From the NCBI GenBank assembly GCA_016212505.1, contig JACRGB010000019.1, positions 1-32,918 of the forward strand: 32,918 bases of DNA, read 5' to 3'. Of this stretch, positions 13,669-27,227 are shown in pieces (the stretch's first letter is position 1; each line of letters starts with the position of its first letter). The stretch is from Microcaldota archaeon. Lineage in GTDB: Archaea; Micrarchaeota; Micrarchaeia; Anstonellales; Bilamarchaeaceae. The notes beneath the pieces were generated by a model that was not told the origin of the DNA, searched no databases, and saw only the letters and a list, made by a program, of their open reading frames with translations. Position numbers and translations under genes: made by a program.

Positions 13669-13936
13669 ATCTTTGGTTTTTGTCGGGCTTTTGGCCCTGC
13701 TAGTGCTCTTTGGATGCCTCAAGGGGGGAGAGAATGCTCCGGCCAAATCGAATGCGAATGTAAGCTATTCGATAAACGGCTCGAATTTCGGTAATCTAAG
13801 CGATTCTGACATTTCTCCAATTTCTGTGACTGGCAGCGGGTCAAACGATTCAGCAGTTATTTCTGACATCTCACTTATTGATGATCAGAACGATTCGCTG
13901 CTGATATCCGAAGAGAACATTATCGAGCCAGGGTAA
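13658..13936 (+). CDS. Small predicted lipoprotein
   Basis: MKTKSLVFVGLLALLVLFGC lipobox-like motif; start overlaps the 3' end of the preceding gene. Confidence 0.65.
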   Translation: MKTKSLVFVGLLALLVLFGCLKGGENAPAKSNANVSYSINGSNFGNLSDSDISPISVTGSGSNDSAVISDISLIDDQNDSLLISEENIIEPG

Positions 13937-13965
13937 TTTTTCTTTTTTCATTCTTTTCTTATTGT

Positions 13966-14014
13966 ATGGTAAATCTGATAATTTACCATGCGGACAAAAT
14001 TTTGGATTTTGTCC
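13966..14014. repeat. Two tandem perfect hairpins downstream of the lipoprotein gene
   Basis: ATGGTAAAT-ctgata-ATTTACCAT (13966-13989) and GGACAAAAT-tttgg-ATTTTGTCC (13992-14014, followed by TCTTTT). Confidence 0.7.
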
Positions 14015-14016
14015 TC

Positions 14017-14025
14017 TTTTAAAAA
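14017..14025 (+). promoter_or_regulatory. Candidate TATA box of the tRNA-Glu gene
   Basis: TTTTAAAAA centred ~29 nt upstream of the tRNA 5' end (14050). Confidence 0.5.
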
Positions 14026-14064
14026 CACTTGGTAGCAAGATAGAACCAAGCTCCTGTAATCTAG

Positions 14065-14149
14065 GAACCCTTTTGGCTTTTGTCCTTCTTATGGCAAAAG
14101 TGTTTCATCCCAAAACCATTAGGTAAACTAAGTCAAAAAGGTTGGATAG
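14065..14149 (+). other. tRNA intron 1 (85 nt, D-loop, after position 15)
   Basis: BHB: exon ATCT(14059-14062) pairs with intron GGAT(14144-14147). Bulges AG^G and AG^A. Outer helix AACCCTTTT(14066-14074)/AAAAAGGTT(14135-14143), one mismatch. Confidence 0.88.
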
Positions 14150-14174
14150 ACCGGTCAAGGATGTCAGACTCTCA

Positions 14175-14230
14175 GAAACTTTTTAGGGAAAAAGTTTCAT
14201 CAAAAACGCTCCCTTCAAAAGTTTAGGGAA
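14175..14230 (+). other. tRNA intron 2 (56 nt, canonical 37/38)
   Basis: BHB: exon CTCT(14169-14172) pairs with intron AGGG(14225-14228), one G-U. Bulges CA^G and AA^C. Helix AAACTTTT(14176-14183)/AAAAGTTT(14217-14224), perfect. Confidence 0.92.
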
Positions 14231-14251
14231 CTCTGAATACCCGGGTTCAAA

Positions 14252-14305
14252 TTCGCTTTTTAGCAAAAAGCTCGCAAAAACGTGCTTGCTAAAAAGTTAT
14301 GAAAT
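14252..14305 (+). other. tRNA intron 3 (54 nt, T-loop, 59/60)
   Basis: BHB: exon TTCA(14246-14249) pairs with intron TGAA(14300-14303). Bulges AA^T and AT^T. Helix 14253-14264/14288-14299 including CTTTTTAGC/GCTAAAAAG, one mismatch. Confidence 0.9.
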
Positions 14306-14331
14306 TCCCGGCAGGAGCATTTCTATTTGCT

Positions 14332-14369
14332 CTAAATGCTCCCTTTTGAAAAACAGGGGGAGCATTTAG
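14332..14369. repeat. 12-bp perfect hairpin just downstream of the tRNA
   Basis: CTAAATGCTCCC(14332-14343)...GGGAGCATTTAG(14358-14369). Confidence 0.75.
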
Positions 14370-14592
14370 TCCTAGCCTAATATGGTCAGGTGAGCATTTA
14401 CTTGCGCTCTGAGCGCCTCTTTTCTTGCCCTTCTTACCAATTTTGAACTGAACATTAGACCTATTTAAAGGCTGGCCTGAGGGGGGTTAGGCGATTGACT
14501 AAGGCGTATCATGGTTGCTTTATTGAGTTCTGTTGCAATTTCATCAGGTTGAATAAATTGTCACAGTCGCCAGATAGAACACTGTAAAACTT

Positions 14593-14847: not shown

Positions 14848-15657
14848 ATGAACAATCCTGATAATTTAGATGTACAAAAACAATTGGAACAAGAAATTAC
14901 AGAAGACCCACCAAGGGTGCTAGAAAAAAGGGGCAAGACAAAAGGGGGAATGATAAACAAACATGCGAAACTGCAAAATCTCGCACAGCAAGAAGATAAA
15001 GATCTCGAACTTACGAGTATATGGAATTTTGGTACAAGAGAAAAAGGTTTCGGCTCACATGTCTTTCACGGTAACTGTATACCTCAAGTAGTAAGGCAGT
15101 GCGTTCTAAGATACTCTAAAGAAGGCGATGTGATCTTAGATAGTATGTCTGGTTCTGGAACAACACTCGACATTTGTAAAGAATTGGAGAGAAAGTGTTT
15201 GGCTTTTGATATTAACCCAGTCCGTCCTGATATTCGGAAAGCTGATTCGTCATGTTTACCATTAAGCAATAATAGGGTATCATTGATTTTTATACATCTT
15301 CCGTATTGGAACATGGTTAGATACTCTGAAGAAAAAGAAGACCTTAGTAATATGTCACTAGATCGGTTCTATGCAAAGTTGCACGCAATATTTGCAGAAC
15401 AAAAACGTGTACTGAAACCAGGCAGTCATATTTGTGTTCTTATAGGTGACAAGATAAAAGAGGGAAAAAGTATTCCATTGACATTCGAAACGTATAATAT
15501 AATGAAAAATTATTTCACCTACAAAGATTATGCCGTCAAGATTACAAAAAACGCTACAAGTGTCGTGAATAAAGGAAGGGTTGTACTCGCAGAATTGGCA
15601 TGGAACAATTTGTTAAAACCTTCTCATGATGTACTACTAGTCTTTCAGAAGGATTAG
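14848..15657 (+). CDS. DNA methyltransferase (N6/N4-type), motif I before motif IV
   Basis: DSMSGSGTTLDICKELERKCLAFDINP (motif I) followed by FIHLPYWNMVRYS (motif IV-like); FYAKLHAIFAEQKRVLKPGSHICVLIGD. Confidence 0.82.
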   Translation: MNNPDNLDVQKQLEQEITEDPPRVLEKRGKTKGGMINKHAKLQNLAQQEDKDLELTSIWNFGTREKGFGSHVFHGNCIPQVVRQCVLRYSKEGDVILDSMSGSGTTLDICKELERKCLAFDINPVRPDIRKADSSCLPLSNNRVSLIFIHLPYWNMVRYSEEKEDLSNMSLDRFYAKLHAIFAEQKRVLKPGSHICVLIGDKIKEGKSIPLTFETYNIMKNYFTYKDYAVKITKNATSVVNKGRVVLAELAWNNLLKPSHDVLLVFQKD

Positions 15658-20926: not shown

Positions 20927-21676
20927 ATGGTAAGTTTCAAATTAGCTGCTTTGAAAATTTTAAAAGAGTCAAGTGAACCACTTCATTATGAGGAGATTAC
21001 TAAAAAAGCACTTGAACAGAACCTGATTGAGACCTCCGGGGCAACTCCAGAAGCAACAATGAACGCTCAACTAAGTGTAGACATCAAATTGAATGGTGCA
21101 AAGTCCCCATTCTTACGAGCCAAACCCGGTTATTTTACTTTAAATCCGGCATATACCCAAGAGGAAGAAAAGAAAGCAGAACAAGCCGAGTTAATCAAAG
21201 AAGAAACGGATAAAACGTTAAATGAAGAACAGATAAGTACTCAGTATATCGGGAAGGCTGGCGAGCATTTGGTTGTAAGCGAACTTCTTTTTAGGGGGTA
21301 TAACGCGAGCATAATGAGCGTTGATGAAGGATTGGATATAGTAGCTACGAAGGATGAGAGATTATTTAATATCCAAGTTAAAACTTCAACCGAAAACAAG
21401 TTTGATTTGCATCTGTCGGACATTCGGATAAGCTCATTCGAAAAGCATAACAGGAACAACACGTATTACATCTTTGTTTTGAAAGGAAAACAGACGAATT
21501 TCTTGATCTTACCGTATCATGAAATCCAAAAGAACATAGATCAGGAAAATATTTTGGTCATTAACAAAAATACTCGTTATCGTGTTAATATGAGGATGAG
21601 GGATGGAAAACTATATCTGGGCAATAAAGATAATGACGCTTCGTATTACCTGAATAATTGGGGGTTAATAAAGTGA
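20927..21676 (+). CDS. HARE-HTH domain fused to a PD-(D/E)XK nuclease-like domain
   Basis: N-terminal FKLAALKILKESSEPLHYEEITKKALEQNLI...MNAQLSVDIKLNGAKSPFLRAKPGYFTL (HARE-HTH). C-terminal GKAGEHLVVSELLFRGYNASIMSVDEGLDIVATKDERLFNIQVKTS. Confidence 0.8.
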   Translation: MVSFKLAALKILKESSEPLHYEEITKKALEQNLIETSGATPEATMNAQLSVDIKLNGAKSPFLRAKPGYFTLNPAYTQEEEKKAEQAELIKEETDKTLNEEQISTQYIGKAGEHLVVSELLFRGYNASIMSVDEGLDIVATKDERLFNIQVKTSTENKFDLHLSDIRISSFEKHNRNNTYYIFVLKGKQTNFLILPYHEIQKNIDQENILVINKNTRYRVNMRMRDGKLYLGNKDNDASYYLNNWGLIK

Positions 21677-21682
21677 TTACGC

Positions 21683-24433
21683 ATGGAACCCGAAGATAAA
21701 GCAAGACACGAACTCATTAATCCTGCGTTAAAAGTCGCGGGTTGGGAAATTCAGCATTATAGTACCGCCAGTCCACAAACATGCAAAGGAGTCGCGGTTG
21801 AATATTTTCAAATGGGTTCCGGAGTAGGAGAAGCAGATTACGTTCTTTTCGTTAATGGAGTGGCTGTTGGTATAATAGAAGCAAAAAAAGTAGGGGAAAC
21901 TTTAGTAGGTAAAGAAACCCAATCAAACAGATATGCGTATGGATTTCCAGAAGAGTTTGACCACATAGATTTACCTCTTCCATTTGTTTATGAATCATCA
22001 GGAACTGAAACCAGATTTACAAATTTCTGGGATCCGAAACCTAGAAGCAGAGAAGTTTTTAGTTTTCATAGACCAGAAACTTTCGAAAAATGGTTGAGTA
22101 ATGGAAAGGAAACTATAAGGGCAAATCTCGCTAAACCAATTTCATTAGAGAATAAGAGATTGTGGCCAAAACAAAAAAGAGCCATAGAGAATACTGAAGA
22201 CTCGTTATCAAAAGGAAAACCAAGAGCATTAATCCAAATGGCTACTGGTTCGGGAAAAACTTATACTGCAGTTAATCTATGCTACCGCCTTATAAAAAAT
22301 GCAGGAGCCAAAAAAATACTTTTTCTTGTAGATCGAGGTAATCTTGGCGAACAAACTGAAATAGAATTTCAAAATTTTGAAGTTCCTAAAGACGGACGGA
22401 AGTTTACTGAGCTCTACAATGTTAATCGGCTTACTACGAATCATATTAATGAATCGGATAAAGTAGTGATTTCAACCATACAAAGAGTATATTCGATGTT
22501 AAAGGGTGAACAAGAACTAGACCCGATGCAAGAAGAAAAGTCTGGTTTCGAAGATAATACTTCGATGGAGCCGGCTCCTGTAGAATATAATCCAAAGATG
22601 CCGATAGAAACCTTTGATTTTATCATAGTGGATGAATGTCATAGATCAATTTACAATCTATGGAAACAGGTTCTTGATTATTTTGATGCTTTTTTGATTG
22701 GTTTGACTGCTACACCATCAAAAAGCACGATTGGTTTTTTCAATAACAATCTCGTTATGGAGTACACCCATGACGAAGCAGTAGCAGATCAGGTTAATGT
22801 TGATTTTAGTGTTTATAACATTAGAACAAAAATAACAAAGAAAGGTTCGAAAATTTCCAAAGGCGAAACAATCCTAAAAAGGGACATGCGAACAAGAAGA
22901 AAGAGATGGGAAACATTAGACGATGAAATTGAATATGAAGCTGGGCAATTGGACAGAACAGTAGTTTCAAAAGACCAGATAAGAACGGTTATTCGAACTT
23001 TTAGAGATAAAGTAAAAACTGAAATTTTCCCAGGTAGAAAACACGTCCCAAAAACTCTGATTTTTGCTAAAGATGATAATCATGCGGAAGAGATCGTTCA
23101 GATCGTGCGAGAAGAATTTAATGAAGGCAATGCATTTGCTGCAAAAATCACATATAAAACAGAAGGACAAAAACCAGAAGATTTGATCAGACAATTTAGA
23201 AACGAGTTCAACCCAAGGATTGCGGTTACGGTAGATATGATCGCAACAGGTACTGATATCAAACCTCTGGAAATCGTATTTTTTATGAGACCAGTAAAGA
23301 GCAGGAATTATTTTGAACAAATGAAAGGAAGGGGCGTTAGAGTCATACCTAACGATGATTTTAAGGCAGTTACCCCTGATGCGATGGCGAAAGAAAGATT
23401 TGTTATTGTTGATGCAGTTGGGGTATGCGAAAGTGAAGATCTTAACGAAACAAGACCAATGGAACAAAATCCTAATACTTCATTTGCAAAGCTGCTAAAA
23501 GCACTTCAATATGGCAAACCCAAGAGAGAGAACTTATCTTCAATGGCAAGTAGACTTGCGCGTTTGCATAAAAAATTAACTGAAGAACAGAATAAGGAGA
23601 TAGGAAGCATTAGTAACGGAAAACAACTAACTGATTTTGCCAGAGATTTTGTGCAAGCTATAGACGAAGATAGAGTATTTGAGCACGCACAAAAAGAATT
23701 TGGTGAAAACCCAACGAAAAAAGAGCTTGAAGAAGTCGCTCATAAAAGAATGGTCGAATCTCTAAAGCCGTTTATAGGAAACGCAAAGCTTATGACAAGA
23801 CTTCCGGAAATCAAAAAAGAAGTAGAACAGATCATAGATGTTGTTTCAATAGATGAAGTTGAAGAAGCAACCTACTCCCCTCTTGCAAAAGAAAAAGCAA
23901 AGCAGATTGTCGGGTCTTTCAAAAAATTCATCGAAGAGAATAAGTCAGAACTTTTAGCATTACAAATGTTTTATAATAAAGGAAAAATGAGCTGGAAAGA
24001 GCTCAAGGAGTTAAGTGAAAAAATAAAGGCTCCGCCGTATTGCTTGACTACTTCAAATTTATGGAGAGCGTATAAGCAGCTAGAAGAGAAAAAAGTCCAC
24101 GGTCGTTCTTATGATAGGTTAGTTGACTTTATCTCCTTGCTTGCATTTGAACTGGAAAAAACCCCAGAATTACAGCCCTATTTAGATACTGTTGATAGAA
24201 GATTTGCCGAATGGTTAGGTAGACAAAAAGAAGCGGGTGTTTCATTTACGCAAGAACAGCTTAATTGGCTGGAAAAAATAAAGGAACACATTGCTACCTC
24301 GGTAGAAGTATTACCGGACGATTTAGAATCTGCTCCATTCAGTCAAATGGGAGGTTTGGGAAAGGCAACCAAAGTCTTTGGGCCTAGCTTTAATAAGCTC
24401 TTAGTACAACTGAACCGCGAGGTTGGTGGATAA
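21683..24433 (+). CDS. hsdR: Type I restriction endonuclease subunit R
   Basis: GEADYVLFVNGVAVGIIEAKK nuclease motif; QMATGSGKTYTAV, DECHRS, LTATPSK, DMIATGTDI, QMKGRGVR helicase motifs. Confidence 0.95.
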   Translation: MEPEDKARHELINPALKVAGWEIQHYSTASPQTCKGVAVEYFQMGSGVGEADYVLFVNGVAVGIIEAKKVGETLVGKETQSNRYAYGFPEEFDHIDLPLPFVYESSGTETRFTNFWDPKPRSREVFSFHRPETFEKWLSNGKETIRANLAKPISLENKRLWPKQKRAIENTEDSLSKGKPRALIQMATGSGKTYTAVNLCYRLIKNAGAKKILFLVDRGNLGEQTEIEFQNFEVPKDGRKFTELYNVNRLTTNHINESDKVVISTIQRVYSMLKGEQELDPMQEEKSGFEDNTSMEPAPVEYNPKMPIETFDFIIVDECHRSIYNLWKQVLDYFDAFLIGLTATPSKSTIGFFNNNLVMEYTHDEAVADQVNVDFSVYNIRTKITKKGSKISKGETILKRDMRTRRKRWETLDDEIEYEAGQLDRTVVSKDQIRTVIRTFRDKVKTEIFPGRKHVPKTLIFAKDDNHAEEIVQIVREEFNEGNAFAAKITYKTEGQKPEDLIRQFRNEFNPRIAVTVDMIATGTDIKPLEIVFFMRPVKSRNYFEQMKGRGVRVIPNDDFKAVTPDAMAKERFVIVDAVGVCESEDLNETRPMEQNPNTSFAKLLKALQYGKPKRENLSSMASRLARLHKKLTEEQNKEIGSISNGKQLTDFARDFVQAIDEDRVFEHAQKEFGENPTKKELEEVAHKRMVESLKPFIGNAKLMTRLPEIKKEVEQIIDVVSIDEVEEATYSPLAKEKAKQIVGSFKKFIEENKSELLALQMFYNKGKMSWKELKELSEKIKAPPYCLTTSNLWRAYKQLEEKKVHGRSYDRLVDFISLLAFELEKTPELQPYLDTVDRRFAEWLGRQKEAGVSFTQEQLNWLEKIKEHIATSVEVLPDDLESAPFSQMGGLGKATKVFGPSFNKLLVQLNREVGG

Positions 24434-25774
24434 ATGACCGACATAGTTCCATTTGGCAGTATCGTAGATATTACTAAAGGTAAGAAGGTTGATATTACAA
24501 ATCAAAAAACAGAACGATCAGTTCCTTACTTATTAATAGATACTTTAAGAGGTGCAAAGCCCGAATTTTTTACCGAAGATAAAAATTATACTGAAGCAAT
24601 TAACAGCGACATACTTATGGTTTTCGACGGTGCAAATTCTGGGTTGGTTGGAACTGGGTTAACTGGGGCAGTCGGTTCTACAATTGCTAGACTTAGACCC
24701 AAAAAAGATGTAAATACTAAATACCTTACATATTTTCTATGCCTTAATTTCTCATCATTGAATCAAGATATTAAGGGTTCTGCAATACCTCACATAAAAC
24801 CAAAAAAACTTGCTGAACTAAAGCTTAGATACCCTTCAAAAGAAGAACAAGAATTAATCTCTCAAGAAATAGAAAAACAACTTAGTAGATTGGATGAAGC
24901 AGTTACTTCGCTAAAAGCAGTAAAACAAAAATTAAATGTTTACAGAAAAAGTGTATTCAAGGCGGCATTTGAAGGAGAATTTTCAAGGCGGTGGAGGAAA
25001 AAACAATCTAATCTAACTGGTATTTCCCTAGAAGATTTACAGTTACAAAGAATGAAAAGAGCTATGATTCTCAAGAATCAAAAGAGTACACTATCTTTTG
25101 GGGAGTGGAAGAAGAAACATATTTTACCAATACAGATTCAAGAAAAATATGCTAGAACTGCCCCATCAAATTGGTTGTGGGTTAATCTTGGTGAAGTATT
25201 CGATGTTTATGTAGGGTCGACTCCAAATCGTTCAAAAAAAGAATATTGGGGGGGCAATATCCCTTGGGTAAGTAGTGGAGAGGTAGCATTTTGTTCGATT
25301 TATGACACTAAGGAAAAAATTACTTCAGTAGGATTTGAAAATTCATCAACTAAACTCCATCCAAAAGGAACAGTGTTATTAGGAATGATTGGTGAGGGGA
25401 AAACCAGAGGCCAGGTTGCGATACTAGAAATTGAAGCGTGTAATAATCAAAATTCAGCGGCAATACGAGTTTCTGAAGTAAATCAATCGCCCAAATACGT
25501 TTATTATTATCTGAGTTTTATCTATGAAAAAAATAGAAAATTAGGTTCTGGGAATAACCAAAAGGCCTTGAATAAAGAAAGAGTGCAGATCATCCCGATT
25601 TTACTTCCTCCTTTACTAGAACAAGAGGTTATAACAAATGAGATAGAGGCTCGTTTTTCAGTTATAAAAAAATTGGAAGAAACTATTGATCGGTCCTTAC
25701 TTAAAGCTGAAAAACTGAAAAAATCTATTCTTAAATCAGCCTTTGAGGGAAGGCTCGTGGAGTATGGTGGATAA
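24434..25774 (+). CDS. hsdS: Type I restriction specificity subunit S
   Basis: Two TRD/coiled-coil halves: PLLEQEVITNEIEARFSVIKKLEETIDRSLLKAEKLKKSILKSAFEGRLV; SKEEQELISQEIEKQLSRLDEAV. Confidence 0.94.
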   Translation: MTDIVPFGSIVDITKGKKVDITNQKTERSVPYLLIDTLRGAKPEFFTEDKNYTEAINSDILMVFDGANSGLVGTGLTGAVGSTIARLRPKKDVNTKYLTYFLCLNFSSLNQDIKGSAIPHIKPKKLAELKLRYPSKEEQELISQEIEKQLSRLDEAVTSLKAVKQKLNVYRKSVFKAAFEGEFSRRWRKKQSNLTGISLEDLQLQRMKRAMILKNQKSTLSFGEWKKKHILPIQIQEKYARTAPSNWLWVNLGEVFDVYVGSTPNRSKKEYWGGNIPWVSSGEVAFCSIYDTKEKITSVGFENSSTKLHPKGTVLLGMIGEGKTRGQVAILEIEACNNQNSAAIRVSEVNQSPKYVYYYLSFIYEKNRKLGSGNNQKALNKERVQIIPILLPPLLEQEVITNEIEARFSVIKKLEETIDRSLLKAEKLKKSILKSAFEGRLVEYGG

Positions 25775-25775
25775 A

Positions 25776-27227
25776 ATGACTGACTCAAACCAATTAGTAA
25801 ACAGATTATGGAATTATTGTAATATTCTACGAGATGATGGACTATCATACGGTGATTATGTAGAGCAGTTGACCTATCTCCTATTCCTCAAAATGGACTA
25901 TGAAAGAATGCATGCCCCATACAATAAAAAATCGGATATCCCACCAAAATATAATTGGGAATCGCTCCTAAATAAAGATGGTGCGGAACTAGAAGCACAC
26001 TATATCGAAACTCTCCAAAAACTGGGGGCGCAGGAAGGGATTATTGGTGTAATTTTTAGAAAAGCCCAAAACAAAATACAAGATCCTGCAAAGCTAAGGA
26101 AACTAATTGTTGAGCTAATTAACAAAGAAAACTGGCTTAGTCTTGAAGCGGATGTCAAAGGAGATGCATACGAAGGATTGCTAGAGAAAAATGCTGAAGA
26201 TGTAAAGGGTGGTGCAGGACAGTATTTTACACCAAGATCTTTGATAAACGCAATAGTGGAGGTTATGAAACCTGAGCCAGGAATGAAAATTCATGATCCT
26301 GCTTGTGGCACTGGTGGGTTCTTGTTATCGGCTTACAACCATATCGTAAAAAATCATAAACTAGATAGGGATCAAAAAGAAGTACTAAAACATAAATCAT
26401 TTTCTGGTAACGAAATTGTTGCAATGGCTGCTAGACTTTGCGTTATGAATTTATATCTGCATGGAATTAACGGTGAAGAAAACCCCATAAGTCCAGATGA
26501 CTCGCTAAAAAAGAATCCCGGGGCCATATATGACATGATCTTAACTAATCCCCCTTTTGGTAAGGCCTCTTCTGAAACCATCGTAACCGAAGAAGGGGAC
26601 ACGGCAAAGAAGGATTTGACTGTTTTAAGAGACGATTTTTGGGCAAAAACCGGCAATAAACAACTTAATTTTTTACAGCATGTAAGAAGTATCCTCAAGA
26701 TTAATGGCAAAGCCGCGATTGTATTGCCGGATAATGTTTTATTCGAAGGAGGAGCTGGAGAAACGATTAGACAAAAACTTATGGAAACCTGTGATCTTCA
26801 CACAATTTTGAGATTACCCACTGGATTATTTTATGCTCAGGGGGTTAAGGCAAATGTCTTATTCTTTGACAAAAAAGCTGCATCTAAAGATGCCTGCACC
26901 TCTAAAGTTTGGATATATGATTTGAGAACAAACACACATTTTACACTTAAAGAAAATCCACTCAAATTGGATCATCTTCAGGATTTCGTTTCTTGTTATA
27001 ATCCAGAAAATAGACATCAACGAAAAGAAACTGAAATATTCAAGTGTTTCACTTATAAAGAGATCATGAAGAGAGATAAGAAAAACTTGGACATATTCTG
27101 GCTTAAAGATGAAAGTCTTGAAGATTTAGACAAGTTACCTAGCCCAAATGTTTTGGCAAATGAGTTAGTTGAAGACCTTGAAGATGCACTAGAACAATTA
27201 AAGGAAATCTCAAGTGATTTGAAATAA
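25776..27227 (+). CDS. hsdM: Type I restriction methyltransferase subunit M
   Basis: GQYFTPRSLINAIVEVMKPEPGMKIHDPACGTGGFLLSAY, ILTNPPFGKAS. Start taken at ATG 25776 just after the hsdS stop; 25764 also possible. Confidence 0.95.
   Translation: MTDSNQLVNRLWNYCNILRDDGLSYGDYVEQLTYLLFLKMDYERMHAPYNKKSDIPPKYNWESLLNKDGAELEAHYIETLQKLGAQEGIIGVIFRKAQNKIQDPAKLRKLIVELINKENWLSLEADVKGDAYEGLLEKNAEDVKGGAGQYFTPRSLINAIVEVMKPEPGMKIHDPACGTGGFLLSAYNHIVKNHKLDRDQKEVLKHKSFSGNEIVAMAARLCVMNLYLHGINGEENPISPDDSLKKNPGAIYDMILTNPPFGKASSETIVTEEGDTAKKDLTVLRDDFWAKTGNKQLNFLQHVRSILKINGKAAIVLPDNVLFEGGAGETIRQKLMETCDLHTILRLPTGLFYAQGVKANVLFFDKKAASKDACTSKVWIYDLRTNTHFTLKENPLKLDHLQDFVSCYNPENRHQRKETEIFKCFTYKEIMKRDKKNLDIFWLKDESLEDLDKLPSPNVLANELVEDLEDALEQLKEISSDLK

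Follow-up and report, generated by a model that had tools for sequence, protein, structure and literature searches.

A tRNA-Glu(CTC) gene interrupted by three bulge-helix-bulge introns in a Micrarchaeota genome rich in disrupted tRNA genes

Between a small ORF without a known family, which ends at position 13936, and a DNA methylase gene, which starts at 14848, a sequence-only reading had placed a tRNA-Glu(CTC) gene broken by three introns. The DNA belongs to the window, the whole stretch of 32,918 nucleotides that we analyzed, and its host is a member of the Micrarchaeota, in agreement with the proposal of a source outside the Thermoproteales. The locus raises the question of whether such a gene works and, if so, how it came to be interrupted three times. 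From the anatomy of the gene, its conservation, the presence of the splicing enzymes, and the homology of the introns, all of which are observed, we consider it very probable that this is a working and apparently single-copy tRNA-Glu(CTC) gene, with transcription and splicing predicted, whose three bulge-helix-bulge (BHB) introns are cut by an epsilon-2 EndA and whose exons are joined by RtcB, introns 1 and 2 being older and intron 3 a gain. Beyond the sequence-only reading are the gain of the T-loop intron, the membership of two introns in a proliferating hairpin family, and the interruption of the majority of tRNA genes that we could locate in the genome.

To locate the gene, we used a purpose-written finder that builds a tRNA from its arms, each allowed one intron obeying the BHB rule. 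Applied to positions 13950 to 14420, the finder returned a single solution, on this strand, with a score of 20.6, and none on the other strand; 600 other pieces of the window gave no solution. The identity, coordinates, and intron lengths were those proposed, with 195 of the 270 nt of the gene (72%) being intron, and splicing leaves a perfect 75-nt tRNA in which all four stems are perfect. The BHB helices were likewise as predicted, with 4/4 central pairs at each of the three junctions and inner helices of 4/4, 4/4, and 3/4 pairs. ARAGORN accepted the spliced 75-mer as tRNA-Glu(ctc) and found no tRNA in the unspliced DNA of the window, even when introns were allowed, and Rfam, including its tRNA model, matched no RNA gene in the window, so that the gene is indeed missed by standard searches, as had been suspected. 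When the precursor was folded, enforcing all three BHBs gave −78.9 kcal/mol, versus −83.7 kcal/mol without constraint, a cost of ~5 kcal/mol. The unconstrained fold already contained the acceptor, anticodon, and T stems, with the exact bulges not formed at all three sites.

Table 1. Features of the tRNA-Glu(CTC) locus and the splicing ligase gene in the window
Feature	Position	Strand	Sequence or evidence
RtcB, tRNA-splicing ligase, 489 aa	8315..9784	-	PF01139, E=2.3e-167
Putative TATA box	14017..14025	+	TTTTAAAAA; ~25 nt upstream of exon 1; proposed from its sequence
Exon 1, tRNA-Glu(CTC)	14050..14064	+	GCTCCTGTAATCTAG; finder, kept in congeners
Intron 1, D-loop, 15/16, 85 nt	14065..14149	+	BHB ATCT/GGAT; homologous D introns of 79-94 nt in G003-G008
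Exon 2, anticodon CTC	14150..14174	+	ACCGGTCAAGGATGTCAGACTCTCA; finder, congener comparison
Intron 2, anticodon loop, canonical 37/38, 56 nt	14175..14230	+	BHB CTCT/AGGG; hairpin module 14179-14205
Exon 3	14231..14251	+	CTCTGAATACCCGGGTTCAAA; finder, congener comparison
Intron 3, T-loop, 59/60, 54 nt	14252..14305	+	BHB TTCA/TGAA; hairpin module 14256-14279; absent in G003-G007, G010, G012
Exon 4	14306..14319	+	TCCCGGCAGGAGCA; finder, congener comparison

Several other features of the window were noted. Just 5′ of the gene, at 13955 to 14016, lies a two-hairpin repeat with many other copies in the genome, one of them upstream of tRNA-Gly(CCC), and 3′ of it is a stable hairpin common to G008. 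At 14312 to 14370, as at loci L001, L018, L228, and L071, the last 3′ bases of the tRNA recur ~50 to 110 nt downstream, a pattern that small insertions using tRNA ends might leave. Farther on, at 20927 to 27227, is an apparent type I restriction-modification cluster, its type I genes named from translations only, preceded by a HARE-HTH/PD-(D/E)XK protein.

Orthologues were sought by BLAST in 17 genomes of the genus together with the finder. In at least seven congeners, tRNA-Glu(CTC) carries D- and anticodon-loop introns, with the splice motif kept by compensatory changes. Both introns (51 to 86 nt) are present in G003, G004, G005, G006, and G007; G008 has three introns (94+76+86), G012 has 94+126, and G002 and G014 have two each, while G010 retains the anticodon intron only and G001 has a single 52-nt T-loop intron. 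The exons are nearly identical across congeners and the introns diverge. In the D-intron helix, exon position 10 pairs with the intron as A-U here, as G-U in G007, and as G-C in the others; in the anticodon-intron helix, CTCT stands opposite AGGG, GGAG, or AGAG; and both sides of the inner splice helices change. Together, these patterns are the most compelling indication that the splice motifs are genuine and maintained by selection.

The enzymes that such splicing would require are encoded in the genome. In addition to RtcB, we found an EndA of 394 aa (PF02778 and PF01974), residues 6 to 394 of which align to the ARMAN-2 epsilon-2 enzyme 4FZ2 (E=1e-132), bearing out the suggestion of a three-unit splicing endonuclease. 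It has the size (~390 to 400 aa) and the alpha-N/alpha/beta-C fusion, alignable to 4FZ2 over its full length, that characterize the epsilon-2 class, and in that alignment catalytic residues Y236, H251, and K282 are conserved, as are Y160 and K161 of the ARMAN loop, which have been linked to a broad substrate range (PMC6379350, PMC12397907). Almost every one of the 43 family genomes has an EndA frame of epsilon-2 size. Because these include genomes with intact tRNA sets, the enzyme permits intron invasion but does not alone explain it. In nearly all of the 43 genomes, a second EndA-like protein of ~150 to 210 aa stands beside the epsilon-2 enzyme (in this genome, L021, 1219-1785 of contig C31); by eye, the catalytic Tyr and His of the protein in this genome seem to be lost and the Lys kept, and it may be a noncatalytic partner. 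The transcript would fold so that a bulge-helix-bulge closes each intron, the epsilon-2 endonuclease would cut in each bulge, and RtcB would join the four exons to give the 75-nt tRNA.

The locus is one of many interrupted tRNA genes in this genome (G000; 1.48 Mb in 46 contigs, ~90% complete). The standard tRNA model reported only 6 tRNAs above its cutoff, of which inspection showed 5 to lack introns [Ala(TGC), Gly(CCC), Ser(TGA), Pro(TGG), and Glu(TTC)]. With introns allowed, about two dozen further tRNA genes were recognized, either with the finder or by eye, among the loci reached by family, pattern, and BLAST searches, and most of the tRNA genes located are interrupted. The first version of the finder picked wrong anticodon arms in some genes; a relaxed version settled most of these, and those that it too misparsed (L218/L219 Asn, L222 Ile(GAT), and L008) were read by eye. 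Three introns are present in Arg(TCT) (99+69+56) and Lys(TTT) (46-47+61+78), both of which ARAGORN accepts once spliced, and Thr(CGT) has D-, anticodon-, and T-loop introns, the finder's split of its T-loop insert being regarded as an artifact. tRNA-Ile(UAU) (L214, contig C4, reverse complement of 1344-1605) resolves into introns of 56+42+56+33 nt, four in all, which exceeds the published archaeal maximum of three; the third and fourth, at 53/54 and 59/60, have relaxed motifs with 3/4 central pairs. Its orthologue in G004 (L074) has the last three of these introns (43+55+33) with better motifs, and that in G001 (L246) appears by eye to have four introns, having been rejected by the finder because of relaxed motifs. 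Only one other Glu gene was located, L005, an uninterrupted TTC isoacceptor. The genome yielded no intact tRNA-Glu(CTC), and since the assembly is ~90% complete, such a copy could be missing from it.

These data bear on what else the locus might be. The intact tRNA-Glu(TTC) could in principle read both Glu codons, the genome is repeat rich, and intron 3 is recent, all of which would suit a dying pseudogene, that is, a redundant and no longer spliced tRNA into which repeats have inserted. We regard this as very improbable, given that the spliced tRNA is perfect in its four stems, that all three BHBs are intact, including that of intron 3, that congeners keep the gene interrupted with compensatory changes, and that most other tRNA genes located in the genome are interrupted in the same way. 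Still less credible, to the point of being negligible, is a chance assembly of a tRNA-like pattern in AT-rich DNA, for all that the region is repeat rich: any solution at all was obtained in just 5 of 1,000 dinucleotide shuffles, with a maximum score of 14.2 versus 20.6 for the real sequence, so that none reached it, and the orthologues in several other species already refute the idea.

A different view would accept splicing but hold that the introns are retained because they themselves do something useful, perhaps as guide or regulatory RNAs, and not through passive spread. The structured, strongly covarying hairpin module described below and the persistence of introns 1 and 2 in most congeners speak for it. 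We think it unlikely, however, as G001 lacks introns 1 and 2, G010 lacks intron 1, the introns diverge fast, and nothing in the window matches Rfam. A working gene with two older introns, common to most congeners, and a third gained in this lineage remains the reading that we prefer.

The T-loop of tRNA-Glu(CTC) is uninterrupted in G003 to G007, G010, and G012, and the T-loop introns of G008 and G001 differ in sequence from intron 3. That the three are unlike suggests three separate insertions into the same loop of tRNA-Glu, and intron 3 looks like a recent, lineage-specific gain. Its relatives are T-loop introns of the same genome, in Leu(GAG) (87% identity over 63 nt), Gly(TCC) (81% over 72 nt), Arg(TCT) (86% over 44 nt), and Leu(TAA) (76% over 70 nt). 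Near-identical introns shared by tRNAs of several isotypes in a genome are the mark of Thermoproteales-type intron transposition, and the simplest reading is that intron 3 was copied between tRNA genes of one genome, most likely from the T-loop intron of another tRNA gene here, such as tRNA-Leu(GAG), the direction and mechanism being conjectural. A candidate target site duplication flanking intron 3 (AAATTC at either end) was discarded, as it gave no clean fit to the T-loop of the congeners.

Introns 2 and 3 both contain a hairpin with a CTTTT/AAAAG core and an AGG-type loop, followed by CAAAA(A)C. A generic pattern for this module found 21 copies in the genome, versus 5 in a reversed control, and by inspection ~17 of the 21 lie in tRNA genes; a strict 30-base core pattern had no match in the genome, because the copies vary. 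Among 127 distinct copies genus-wide, which have 39 different 5′ flanks, 101 show full Watson-Crick complementarity between the four bases on either side of the enforced core; over all copies, these positions yield 458 pairs, versus a mean of 204 and a maximum of 236 after shuffling. Such complementarity shows that the stem covaries and that the copies belong to one structured family. The intron family that carries the module appears to have reached the majority of the tRNA genes that we could locate in this genome, which is why ordinary software misses them, and the module may be mobile. Across 43 genomes of the family, module copies and model-detectable tRNAs are anticorrelated (Spearman −0.51, relatedness uncorrected): G012 has 87 copies and 2 detectable tRNAs, and G013 has 2 copies and 39 tRNAs. 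G029 and G042 have few copies yet few detectable tRNAs, so there must also be a contribution from gaps in the assemblies or from introns of other families.

The module is not confined to tRNA genes, although it is rarer elsewhere. G001 has 39 copies, most in tRNA genes (by finder or by eye) and a few right after tRNA 3′ ends; of the remainder, one is at the SRP RNA 3′ end, and others are beside putative small RNAs or between genes. At L254, L259, and L269 of G001, the module starts directly after the last tRNA base, and at L245 (contig C3, ~14468) it follows the 3′ part of the SRP RNA, which it may interrupt. In G007 (L280/L077, contig C36, ~219047-219076), the hairpin core lies within the 23S rRNA gene, possibly as an intron. 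A sequence recurring at L052, L057, L059, L065, L067, and L250 (AACTCAAGATC..TCATC .. CTCAG/GATGA) has a full two-hairpin element in its middle; it has no Rfam match and resembles a small RNA gene that the module has split. Among unrelated archaea and bacteria, a closely similar hairpin plus GATCAAAAAC core is dispersed in Methanosarcina (L093, L099), where it is in tandem, in Acutalibacter (L091), and in Woesearchaeota (L138, L141, L167), where it lies between long direct repeats. Methanosarcina, ANME-1, Clostridia, and Cloacimonadota have a core that is similar, and possibly homologous, to the Micrarchaeota module; the examples inspected looked intergenic. A viral origin was also considered, but there were only 2 module matches among 2.9 million viral contigs.

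Dispersed, structured copies inside and outside genes are the hallmark of MITE- or introner-like elements. Filled and empty sites were seen for the tRNA-Glu T-loop, no mobilizing enzyme was linked to the module, and by eye its copies showed no clean target duplication. We offer as a tentative proposal, one we would not yet favor, that this genus of Micrarchaeota hosts a small mobile palindrome, of the form N4-CTTTT-RGG-AAAAG-N4′ followed by CAAAAC and sometimes a mirrored right half, which has a preference for structured-RNA genes as insertion sites and acts there as a BHB intron. It might then be an archaeal counterpart of introner elements that disrupts nearly the whole tRNA set, with up to four introns per gene, in species whose sister species have tRNA genes that are almost all intact.

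Heavy tRNA intron invasion is thus found in the Micrarchaeota too, besides the Thermoproteales and some Asgards. The standard tRNA model reports 2 to 6 tRNAs in some species of the genus versus 39 in another, and because the completeness of genomes from uncultured archaea and their decoding repertoire are gauged from tRNA counts, genomes of this kind will be misjudged. With filled and empty sites available inside a single genus, the way in which archaea gain tRNA introns, a long-open question, becomes directly testable. Our literature search, beyond which lay the key 2010 and 2011 papers, returned no description of such features in Micrarchaeota.

Multi-intron tRNA genes of Thermoproteales were reportedly described by Sugahara in 2007 and 2008, and the relaxed-motif introns and epsilon-2 EndA of ARMAN-2 are said to have been described by Fujishima in 2011. 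In Thermoproteales, tRNA genes have up to three BHB introns at canonical and noncanonical sites and are missed by standard searches (PMC4090602, PMC8450103). The genes described here resemble them in all these respects and in that tRNAs of more than one isotype within a genome have closely similar introns; they differ in phylum, in having an epsilon-2 rather than an alpha-beta EndA, in the four-intron tRNA-Ile(UAU), and in the covarying hairpin module common to many introns, which, unlike the introns transposed in Thermoproteales, also occurs after tRNA 3′ ends, at the SRP RNA, in 23S rRNA, and between genes. ARMAN-2 and Micrarchaeum, of the same phylum, have relaxed-motif introns and an epsilon-2 EndA (PMC12397907, PMC6379350) and share with this genome the ARMAN-specific loop of that enzyme, the differences lying in the extent of invasion and the number of introns per gene. 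In the Asgard lineages Atabeyarchaeia and Freyarchaeia, 92 to 95% of the tRNA genes are interrupted, more than half by several introns, with many at noncanonical sites (PMC11291895); the intron-rich tRNA set, with several introns per gene and noncanonical sites, is similar here, but the phylum is different, and the accessible part of that report makes no mention of a shared hairpin module. Multi-intron archaeal tRNAs, noncanonical sites, Thermoproteales intron transposition, and intron-rich Asgards are established (PMC4090602, PMC8450103, PMC11291895), and the tRNA-Glu locus alone extends a phenomenon already known to a new lineage. Three features go beyond this: a gene with four introns, insertions made repeatedly and independently into a single T-loop, and the connection of introns to a hairpin module that is dispersed.
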